Shown piece after piece: positions 62,023-64,000 of a stretch of 64,000 nucleotides of DNA. A program made the position numbers and the translations under genes. Origin of the DNA: Marinomonas sp. SBI8L. Lineage in GTDB: Bacteria > Pseudomonadota > Gammaproteobacteria > Pseudomonadales > Marinomonadaceae. Below the pieces are notes generated by a model, which saw nothing but the letters and a program-made list of their open reading frames with translations, was not told where the DNA came from and searched no databases. The stretch lies in contig NZ_JSEO01000004.1 in NCBI RefSeq assembly GCF_001624705.1, forward strand, positions 248,001-312,000. Direction: 5' to 3'. Numbering within the stretch: the first letter of the stretch is position 1; the number at the start of each line of letters is the position of its first letter.

Positions 62023-62280
62023 CTAATCAAATTGCTCCATCATTTTCTGAAGCTTTGTATACTGAGACCTTAACGCTTGATCTTGCAAGTATTGCGAACC
62101 ATAGTTAGGTACTTCATTAATATTTACATCAACACCTAATGTATGTAATTTTTTCTCCATAACACTAATATCAACCCTAAGATCATACATCTCTTTATCT
62201 GGGTTTGATTTTGCCTGCACATTACTAGACATAAAAGTCACAAGTGCAAGACTTATAAAACCTAGCTTGTAAAACTTCAT
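62023..62280 (-). CDS. Small secreted helical protein, diverged fifth member of the array
   Basis: This 85-aa protein of unknown function has a signal peptide (1-22, ending VQAKS) and a mature helical body of about 63 residues. It keeps the plan of the four upstream paralogues: DLRVDISVMEKKLHTLGVDV corresponds to their D-I-K-I-S-V-S-A-L-E segment, and ALRSQYTKLQKMM to their C-terminal ALE-Y-LQ helix. The middle linker differs (NEVPNYGSQYLQDQ). GGAGAAA precedes the ATG. It is separated from the array by a terminator, so it is transcribed on its own. Confidence 0.75.
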   Translation of the reverse strand: MKFYKLGFISLALVTFMSSNVQAKSNPDKEMYDLRVDISVMEKKLHTLGVDVNINEVPNYGSQYLQDQALRSQYTKLQKMMEQFD

Positions 62281-62527
62281 TTCTATTTTCTCCGATAAGT
62301 TCAATATTTAAGTTAATTATATATGTAAAACATTACTAAATATGTAGTTAAAACCCTTTTCCACTGTATTTACAGATTTCAAAAGATTGTGTAAAAAAAC
62401 TTTGAAATTGAAAGAAAAATTCAAAATGAATGTAGAGAAAAAAACAAAAGAAATAAAACAATGCAGAGGTGGTAATATGTAAAAAAGATAAGTGAAGAGG
62501 AATAAACTGAGGTAATAAAAACTAAAG

Positions 62528-62556
62528 AAGCTAAGTTTAATGAATAAACTTAGCTT
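62528..62556 (-). terminator. Rho-independent terminator of the four-gene paralogue array
   Basis: A perfect 12-bp stem (62528-62539 with 62545-62556) with a 5-nt loop lies 17 bp past the last array stop. On the minus strand it leads into TTTAGTTTTTATT. Confidence 0.85.
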
Positions 62557-62573
62557 TCCTTAAGCAGCCCATA

Positions 62574-62837
62574 TTAGTTAGCTACATGGTTATTTTGAAA
62601 AATAGTTTGCAGTGAATCATATTTAGCTTCTAAAGCTTTAACTTGTTGAGAGCGATTTAATCCTGACTCGATATCTGATGAGTTATAGTCTACACCCATA
62701 CTATCAAGTTGGTTTTCAAGTGCAGAAACACTGATTCGAATATCTTCTACTTCGTCAGCATAATCTGTTGCTAACGCTGAAGTTGCGGCCATAGATAATG
62801 CAGTTACAGCGAATGTGGTTGCGATAAAGTTTTTCAT
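62574..62837 (-). CDS. Small secreted helical paralogue, array copy 4
   Basis: This 87-aa protein of unknown function is one of four close tandem paralogues. The signal peptide is 1-23 (ending ALATDYADE). The mature part has two predicted helices: an amphipathic one (VEDIRISVSALENQLDSMGV) and one from SGLNRSQQVKALEAKYDSLQ, joined by a short loop with D-Y-N-S-S. A heptad-like spacing of hydrophobics suggests a helical hairpin or oligomeric coiled coil. The ribosome site is AAAGGT. This copy ends in ...NNHVAN and is followed by the shared terminator. Confidence 0.8.
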   Translation of the reverse strand: MKNFIATTFAVTALSMAATSALATDYADEVEDIRISVSALENQLDSMGVDYNSSDIESGLNRSQQVKALEAKYDSLQTIFQNNHVAN

Positions 62838-62863
62838 AATAAAGTACCTTTTAAATTAATATA

Positions 62864-63127
62864 TTAGTTAGCAAAGTGTGCATTGTTAAATTGAGCTTGA
62901 AGCTCAGAGTATCTACCTTCTAGCGCTTTTACTTCCTGCGCTCTATTTAATCCAGCTTCGATGTTAGTTGTGTTATAGTCAACACCCATGCTTTCAAGCT
63001 GTCTTTCTAGAGCAGAAACACTAATCTTTATATCTTTTACTTCATCAGAGTAGTCGCTTGCCAACACTGAACTAGCAGTAGTTGATAAAGCAGTAGCAGC
63101 AAGAATTGTCGCGATTGTTTTATTCAT
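62864..63127 (-). CDS. Small secreted helical paralogue, array copy 3
   Basis: This 87-aa paralogue has a signal peptide at 1-23 (ending VLASDYSDE), an amphipathic helix VKDIKISVSALERQLESMGV, the loop DYNTTNIEAGLNR, and the C-terminal helix AQEVKALEGRYSELQAQFNN. The sequence is nearly colinear with its neighbours, without gaps. The leader TTTAAAGGTAAA before the ATG is also repeated in the other copies, so the duplication unit includes the ribosome site. The gap to copy 4 is 26 bp. Confidence 0.8.
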   Translation of the reverse strand: MNKTIATILAATALSTTASSVLASDYSDEVKDIKISVSALERQLESMGVDYNTTNIEAGLNRAQEVKALEGRYSELQAQFNNAHFAN

Positions 63128-63155
63128 AATAATTTACCTTTAAATTAAACTAGTT

Positions 63156-63413
63156 TTAGTATTGAGCATTGTTAAATTGATTTTGCAAAGAAGAGTATTT
63201 AGCTTCTAATGCTCTTACTTCTTGAGATCTATTTAAACCAGATTCGATTTCTACAGTATGATATTCAACGTCCATGCTTTTTAATTGATTTTCCAGAGCT
63301 GAAACACTTATTTTAATATCTCTTACTTGATCAGAGTAATCACTTGCAAGTGCAGAAGTTGTTACAGTAGATAACGCAGCGATTGCTAGTAGTGATGATG
63401 TGATTTTTTTCAT
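63156..63413 (-). CDS. Small secreted helical paralogue, array copy 2
   Basis: This 85-aa paralogue ends two residues earlier than the 87-aa copies (...NNAQY). The signal peptide is 1-23 (ALASDYSDQ). Helix one is VRDIKISVSALENQLKSMDV, the loop is EYHTVEIESGLNRS, and helix two is QEVRALEAKYSSLQNQFNN. The ATG at 63413 is used because it begins the conserved signal peptide behind AAAAGGTT; an upstream frame to 63473 overlaps copy 1. No cysteine or enzyme motif is present. Confidence 0.8.
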   Translation of the reverse strand: MKKITSSLLAIAALSTVTTSALASDYSDQVRDIKISVSALENQLKSMDVEYHTVEIESGLNRSQEVRALEAKYSSLQNQFNNAQY

Positions 63414-63441
63414 TTTGATTAACCTTTTAAAATTTAAAATA

Positions 63442-63705
63442 TTAGTTAGAGTAAGTTGCATTAACAAACTCATTTCTTAGAGCAGAGTATTTACCTTCTA
63501 ATGCTTTTACTTCTTGAGCTCTATTTAAACCTAATTTAATTTCGATGTTATTATATTCAACATCCATAATTTCAAGCTGTTTCTCTAATGCAGATACACT
63601 TAGTTTTAAATCTTTAACTTCATCAGAATAATCACTTGCCATACTTGTAGTAGCGGTTGTTGATAATGCTGCAATTGCTAAAAAAGAAGAGATAATAGAT
63701 TTCAT
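63442..63705 (-). CDS. Small secreted helical paralogue, array copy 1 (first of the operon)
   Basis: This 87-aa paralogue is the promoter-proximal copy. The signal peptide is 1-23 (SMASDYSDE). Helix one is VKDLKLSVSALEKQLEIMDV, the loop is EYNNIEIKLGLNRA, and helix two is QEVKALEGKYSALRNEFVN. The IKLGLNR segment replaces the IESGLNR/IEAGLNR of the other copies. The ribosome site TTTAAAGGTAAA is 7 bp before the ATG. The next 295 bp upstream have no gene but contain two inverted repeats. Confidence 0.8.
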   Translation of the reverse strand: MKSIISSFLAIAALSTTATTSMASDYSDEVKDLKLSVSALEKQLEIMDVEYNNIEIKLGLNRAQEVKALEGKYSALRNEFVNATYSN

Positions 63706-64000
63706 ATTTATTTACCTTTAAAGTTTTTAATTGGGAAGATTTGTTCCCCCCTGTTGATGAAATATATAATAGCGTTTTCAAAAATAAATAAAATAGCCAA
63801 ACGCTCTCTTCCCCTGTGTTTACAAAATTGGAAAAGCGATGTGCTAATTTGATTAAATGTGCATATATTGTGATGAATATGCACATATAGGGAGAGAAGA
63901 ATAAATTGTGAAAGAAATGTTTATAATTGGGCTGAATTTAGCCTTTATTAGGCACTTTTAGCATCATTTTTTAGTACTTAAGTTTAGTTAGTAATAGCCT
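63706..64000. other. Leader and control region of the paralogue array
   Basis: This is a very AT-rich, gene-free stretch. It contains AGCGTTT/AAACGCT as an inverted repeat about 60-110 bp upstream of the first array start, and a perfect 10-bp inverted repeat further out (63857-63886). No clean -35/-10 pair was identified, and no long reading frame from the right edge was seen. Confidence 0.55.
63857..63886. promoter_or_regulatory. Perfect 10-bp inverted repeat upstream of the paralogue array
   Basis: ATGTGCATAT (63857-63866) and ATATGCACAT (63877-63886) are separated by 10 bp, so the arms repeat on a 20-bp centre spacing, two helical turns. This is what a dimeric transcription factor site looks like. 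The inner TGTGA box does not have the correct 6-bp spacing for CRP. Confidence 0.55.

Follow-up and report, generated by a model that had tools for sequence, protein, structure and literature searches.

A tandem array of small exported helical proteins from a likely abundant orphan family of Marinomonas

A four-gene array in Marinomonas sp. SBI8L encodes small exported helical proteins of an orphan family that the genus keeps well and that is likely abundant; the proteins probably serve the cell envelope in bulk, as a component or as a helper. The array lies at the end of a stretch of 64,000 nucleotides, referred to here as the window. Sequence and calculation support several features: the paralogues are intact, they have signal-type leaders and heptads, the genus retains them broadly and under purifying selection, their codon usage is biased, and boxes upstream of them are conserved.

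Organization of the array and the predicted protein

On the minus strand at the window's end, four intact genes of 87, 85, 87, and 87 codons lie head to tail with gaps of 28, 28, and 26 bp and would form one operon. The tandem array recognized in the preliminary description (four genes of 85 to 87 codons, gaps of 26 to 28 bp) is real. The diverged fifth copy that it placed beyond a terminator is likewise a member of the family, pairing with a counterpart from Marinomonas sp. MED121 in a gene tree and having the same two predicted helices. Identity to copy 3 is 63 to 64% for copies 1, 2, and 4 and 22% for copy 5. The features of the region are as follows.

62023..62280, minus strand: copy 5 (w5), diverged paralogue with its own upstream region; 85 codons; codon adaptation index 0.574, ordinary
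62359..62373, minus strand: GTAAATACAGTGGAA, a paired box and putative activator site 93 bases 5' of copy 5
62528..62556, minus strand: terminator-like hairpin 3' of copy 4; 12 pairs and a T-rich tail; separates the array from copy 5
62574..62837, minus strand: copy 4 (w4), last gene of the array; 87 codons; codon adaptation index 0.682
62864..63127, minus strand: copy 3 (w3); 87 codons; codon adaptation index 0.626; mature protein modeled as helix 3-23, loop, helix 39-63
63156..63413, minus strand: copy 2 (w2); 85 codons; codon adaptation index 0.674
63442..63705, minus strand: copy 1 (w1), first gene of the array; 87 codons; codon adaptation index 0.706
63734..63752, minus strand: hairpin predicted for the copy 1 untranslated leader; -9.2 kcal/mol, z of -2.0 against shuffled sequences
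63766..63771, minus strand: TATTAT, a putative -10 element 5' of copy 1 whose position is conserved across the genus; no full match to the sigma-70 consensus
63809..63823, minus strand: GTAAACACAGGGGAA, a paired box and putative activator site 118 bases 5' of copy 1; layout conserved in the genus

An upstream ATG gives copy 2 an alternative, longer frame. Two terminator-like sites were found in the region, compared to a mean of 0.7 in shuffled sequences, the second of them inside the copy 5 gene. The repeated leaders first described for the array hold in part: TTTAAAGGTAAA occurs in exact form only upstream of copies 1 and 3, related versions precede copies 2 and 4, and copy 5 has no such leader. 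MED121 carries six array copies and a fifth gene in the same order as the window, with the same neighboring genes for a MerR regulator, an ArsP_1-type permease and a TPMT-type methyltransferase.

Across a collected set of 128 copies from 42 genomes, every copy has a signal-type leader with a small-residue cleavage motif in residues 16 to 27 (matched by a simple pattern). This bears out the export proposed earlier. At the predicted cleavage site the five window proteins are left with 64, 62, 64, 64, and 62 residues, which the original estimate of about 63 approximates. None of the five contains cysteine, as had been reported, or tryptophan. Mature proteins are mostly acidic, with a mean net charge of -5.4 (range, -12 to +5; 128 copies). 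Structure prediction from shallow alignments of 12 sequences returned a helix-loop-helix for both mature copy 3 (pLDDT 86.3, pTM 0.72) and mature copy 5 (pLDDT 86.2, pTM 0.72), in agreement with the two-helix plan read from the window. Over the 128 copies, large hydrophobic residues recur with a coiled-coil-like period of 104 degrees in helix 1 and 102 degrees in helix 2; a hydrophobic residue almost always occupies positions 17, 21, 53, and 57 (L17, L21, L53, F57), with G25, K49, and Q54 as conserved positions. A hairpin of two helices joined by a loop, with coiled-coil heptads, is the shape predicted for the mature protein.

The family had been described as having no recognized function, and this stands: none of the five window proteins matched a Pfam or NCBIfam family above its curated cut-off, comparison with the PDB and known folds gave no convincing match, and no confident match to a characterized family emerged. 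Weak matches to PepSY_2 (PF13670) were found in 10 of 37 members (best E value, 2.9e-4), including window copies 3 and 4 (14.4 and 13.6 bits, against a cut-off of 24.3); the other three window copies were not among the matches listed. These matches begin within the signal peptide, and the family studied here is modeled as two helices with no strands. Similarly weak matches to PHROG phrog_10714 in four of the five window proteins (E = 0.0025 to 0.055) extended to only 3 of 37 wider members and were set aside as coiled-coil noise. Among the titles listed in searches of the Marinomonas literature, mostly outside subscription journals, there was no paper on the family.

Distribution, selection and spread of copies

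Profile searches place the family in most Marinomonas species and in no other sampled group. Of 144 relatives, 41 had a match to a profile built from the five window copies, and 40 of those 41 belong to the genus. A second profile, built from 36 mature sequences, matched 46 of 49 genus genomes at E ≤ 0.001, with 1 to 10 copies per species (both counts among the matches listed). When the three genomes without a match, G008 and G021 (both near complete) and G044 (77% complete), were searched again, no convincing family match was obtained (best E value, 0.0103), which leaves G008 and G021 as two full-quality Marinomonas genomes without the family. Partial matches occur at G041:C1, G025:C12, G034:C18, and G005:C34, those at G025:C12 and G005:C34 being at contig ends. 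Despite the two genomes that lack it and these few partial matches, most of the genus retains the family in intact form; the decay of sister copies raised in the preliminary description as evidence against it was not what we found. In a sample of 293 genomes from the order, at least 13 of which belong to Marinomonas, 13 were matched; 12 of these are Marinomonas, and the other reached E = 0.005 in a frame of 373 aa. Among 369 genomes from the class, the 8 matched were the window's own and seven at E = 0.002 to 0.008 in frames of 320 to 984 aa. Matches outside the genus in these samples are marginal and lie in long, unrelated frames. No relative was found on plasmids (tblastn, two queries), in phages (tblastn, one query), or in viral contigs (two scans).

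Ratios of dN/dS for the mature part were 0.12 to 0.31 over the six pairs of copies 1 to 4 and 0.09 between copy 5 and the fifth gene of MED121; several other copy pairs were saturated at synonymous sites. This purifying selection between copies speaks for one protein type having been kept, and against variation. In a quick tree from few columns, copies 1 to 4 group with the six MED121 array copies at a support of 87, which is not strong; copy 5 and the fifth gene of MED121 form a pair (support of 100). The fifth gene therefore split off before the two species parted.

Other species carry copies that are scattered instead of stacked. The stretches examined in G017, G023, and G029 hold 8, 7, and 8 scattered copies, respectively, which are alike from ~175 bases 5' of the gene to at most ~95 bases 3' of it and are 70 to 98% identical. 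Because the likeness spans promoter to terminator, whole transcription units appear to have been copied, and the comparison indicates that the family grows in two ways, by tandem doubling and by dispersal of whole units. In G007, pairs of two paralogues recur about every 1.2 kb. At L041:4221-11967 (G029), four near-identical units alternate with differing genes on the opposite strand, one of them encoding a SEFIR/TIR-domain protein; this locus looks like an insertion hot spot.

Predicted output and the promoter region

The array's codon usage is close to that of ribosomal-protein genes, and copies 1 to 4 look built for very high output. With weights taken from 24 ribosomal-protein genes of the window's genome, these copies scored 0.626 to 0.706, compared to 0.527 (sd, 0.037; maximum, 0.630) for 48 window open reading frames (ORFs) of at least 150 aa and a mean of 0.710 for the 24 ribosomal-protein genes, which themselves set the weights. 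Random stretches of 87 codons scored as high in 0.05%, 0.6%, 4.4%, and 0.5% of cases for copies 1 to 4 and in 23% for copy 5. Of 71 family genes at 20 loci in 19 other genomes, 64 scored above every local ORF of at least 150 aa, under the weights of the window's genome and with 12 of the 64 coming from one locus with two local ORFs. The preliminary description had attributed the expansion to selection for either dosage or variation; the codon bias and the dN/dS ratios among copies 1 to 4 favor the first alternative and not the second, making dosage the likelier reason on sequence evidence. If the predicted abundance is true, a genus of common marine bacteria spends a sizeable share of its exported protein on a nameless family with no fold match, and the family would be a case of a lineage-restricted gene that has become a core, high-dosage part of the envelope.

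The first genes of family units share an upstream layout across the genus, comprising paired boxes, a T-rich stretch, a TATTAT-like -10 element, and often a ATCGAAACG leader. The pattern GNAA-N7-GGAA, or its reverse order (an 11-bp period), was present in 36 of 57 family upstreams, compared to 6 of 198 upstreams of other ORFs; spacers of 3 to 14 other than 7 were found in at most 7 of the 57. These 57 are what remained of 79 once upstreams at least 70% alike had been removed, and they retain some relatedness. The upstreams of both the window array and copy 5 carry the strict pair, which is missing from 21 of the 57. A sigma-70 scan gave no promoter-like site at the proposed promoter. Boxes paired at a distance of roughly one turn of the helix typify OmpR-family response regulators, and the paired boxes of the family would be the site of a DNA-binding response regulator. 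As common elements they offer a handle on a regulon, none having been described in the searches made.

Two known regulators were compared with the boxes. CpxR was considered because the window boxes start with GTAAA, as does the published CpxR site, GTAAA-(N)4-8-GTAAA (PMC5063474). It is unsupported, given that family boxes have an 11-bp period and the cpxP promoters of three Marinomonas genomes (G027, G011, and G038) carry GTAAA-N5-GTAAA, a 10-bp repeat. No cpxRA was located in the window's own genome, where the gene that matches LTXXQ, the CpxP/Spy family, adjoins another two-component pair. The Salmonella OmpR site, TGTWACAW (PMC3586657), fits the family boxes only loosely.

A candidate signature joining the -10 element to the leader, TATTATNNNNNCATCGAAAC, matched exactly at 8 sites in 49 genomes, each of them a short way 5' of a family gene. 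It failed as a unique marker: matches with one mismatch totaled 33, against 24 for a reversed-pattern control, and the window array has no match. Two one-mismatch matches in the window's genome both fall in a repeated coding stretch. At L127:489-1541 and 2224-2484 (G000:C7), a gene and its partial duplicate lie 919 bp apart. Leader hairpins were also dropped as a general feature, the signal being weak (mean z, -0.93; 22 of 48 under -1 and 9 of 48 under -2) over the 48 of 62 leaders that were folded, from which low-scoring anchors were left out except L001 and L011. There was no Rfam match. Upstream of the array boxes, at window positions 63853-63885, lies an inverted repeat, TGTGCATAT ... ATATGCACA, with a similar repeat at MED121; it may be a second operator.

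Candidate roles in the cell envelope

For the mature protein we infer a periplasmic location, an oligomer, a response regulator behind its expression and a chaperone-like role. The four-gene operon would make a large amount of one small exported protein type, its copies kept for dosage, with expression switched on by a DNA-binding response regulator acting through paired boxes ~11 bp apart. A cleavable signal would lead each product across the inner membrane, where it would fold as an acidic hairpin of two helices and a loop, with heptads of the coiled-coil type; in the periplasm, hairpins would probably pair to give a small bundle of helices. There the product could serve as a bulk, ATP-independent protector of envelope proteins, either a holdase or a crowding agent, similar to Spy and CpxP in its working, with kinship to them unsupported. 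Taking the analysis as a whole, an abundant periplasmic, ATP-independent, chaperone-like envelope protein is the single most likely role, which we put forward tentatively. It is favored by the size, export and helical structure of the protein, by the abundance expected of it, by boxes like those of response regulators and by the TxxQK helix cap, and it is weakened by the lack of significant kinship with CpxP, by a CpxP/Spy-type gene in most genomes of the genus, and by an acidic charge unlike that of Spy. Among the roles raised in the preliminary description, an envelope coiled-coil or a chaperone fits the data better than a surface fiber.

The resemblance to the CpxP/Spy family (LTXXQ, PF07813) lies in small size, export and helical structure, and the expected abundance recalls that of Spy, a small helical periplasmic chaperone that can make up as much as 25% of periplasmic protein (PMC8144458). 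Helix 2 starts with TxxQK in 73 of 128 copies (window copies 1 to 4 have LNRxQ there), which is reminiscent of LTDTQK and LTPEQK in Marinomonas CpxP. In contrast, family proteins are half the size, have two helices instead of four and carry an LTxxQ motif at one position, compared to two in Marinomonas CpxP; they are also mostly acidic, whereas the binding face of Spy is mainly positive (PMC8144458). HMMER, whose filters drop most weak matches, listed no PF07813 match at E ≤ 10 for any of the five window proteins. Alignment to CpxP with hhalign gave a probability of 0.9% with 5 and 1.0% with 42 CpxP-like rows over 9 to 12 columns. The TxxQK stretch alone aligned; the score was 14.3, and 30 shuffles of the columns, in which helix periodicity is lost as well, reached at most 11.5. 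On these comparisons, homology of the family to CpxP/Spy is not supported. A CpxP/Spy-type gene, recognized by its LTXXQ match, is present in 47 of 49 Marinomonas genomes. The only two without one, G017 and G023, have among the highest counts of family copies (8 and 7), and these two are close kin in the gene tree, so the coincidence of LTXXQ absence with many copies represents at best one event. We think it quite unlikely that the family is a genus-restricted, half-size counterpart of CpxP/Spy, with a TxxQK-capped hairpin, bulk output from a regulon-like promoter and tandem and scattered growth, that has perhaps replaced CpxP/Spy in the G017/G023 lineage.

Next after a chaperone-like role, and possible if doubtful, is a structural part in the envelope, in which a coiled-coil without an anchor would fill the periplasm or set its spacing in place of Lpp, the abundant lipoprotein of enterobacteria. 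Like Lpp (PF04728), the family is very small, exported, built on coiled-coil heptads and likely abundant, and the high predicted output and clear heptads suit such a role. Unlike Lpp, it has no lipobox cysteine (cysteine after residue 22 occurs in 3 of 128 copies) and is modeled as a hairpin instead of one long helix. The best PF04728 match among window proteins was to one copy (E = 0.098; 13.4 bits, against a cut-off of 29.1). All 49 Marinomonas genomes were without a PF04728 match, as a structural substitute would lead one to expect, but 13 of 14 control genomes were also without one, Escherichia coli alone being matched, and the absence in Marinomonas is therefore nothing special. Moreover, the conserved loop residues G25, V28, V31, and L33, together with variable copy number, point to a role beyond spacing.

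A secreted or surface protein, released or assembled into fibers for biofilm formation, adhesion or microbial competition, is unlikely. Copy number that varies by species (1 to 10, among the matches listed) and similar copies at changing places are consistent with it, and such variation is common for surface genes. However, no partner for export, anchoring or assembly recurs by the copies, whose neighbors vary among the loci examined, and the mature parts are under purifying rather than diversifying selection.

Improbable, too, is a periplasmic buffer of a ligand or metal, or an inhibitor of one envelope enzyme, needed in high amounts. The conserved loop and the conserved polar residues Q41, K42, K49, and Q54 could suit binding, and the array in both the window and MED121 adjoins genes for a MerR regulator and an ArsP_1-type permease. 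Against this, cysteine is almost lacking, His is scarce (2.1% of mature residues), and the permease gene is absent from the other family loci looked at.

A partly selfish repeat, in which a ~550-bp unit spreads by recombining or by marking insertion sites and the protein is minor, would account for the near-identical dispersed units in three species and the genes between them in G029, one of the SEFIR/TIR type, but is very improbable given that reading frames and synonymous-biased change have long been kept, that 46 of 49 genomes keep the family (among the matches listed), and that plasmid, phage and viral contig collections had no match with the queries used. Site-specific shuffling driven by a recombinase was also considered, since a 415-aa tyrosine-recombinase-like gene adjoins the array in many species. 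That gene is present once in each of the 49 genomes and, in the window's genome, lies on another contig; it is therefore a chance neighbor, a core gene with no link to the family, and shuffling of this kind was rejected. At L056:5376-6623 and kin, it often lies between moaE and an M48 peptidase gene.
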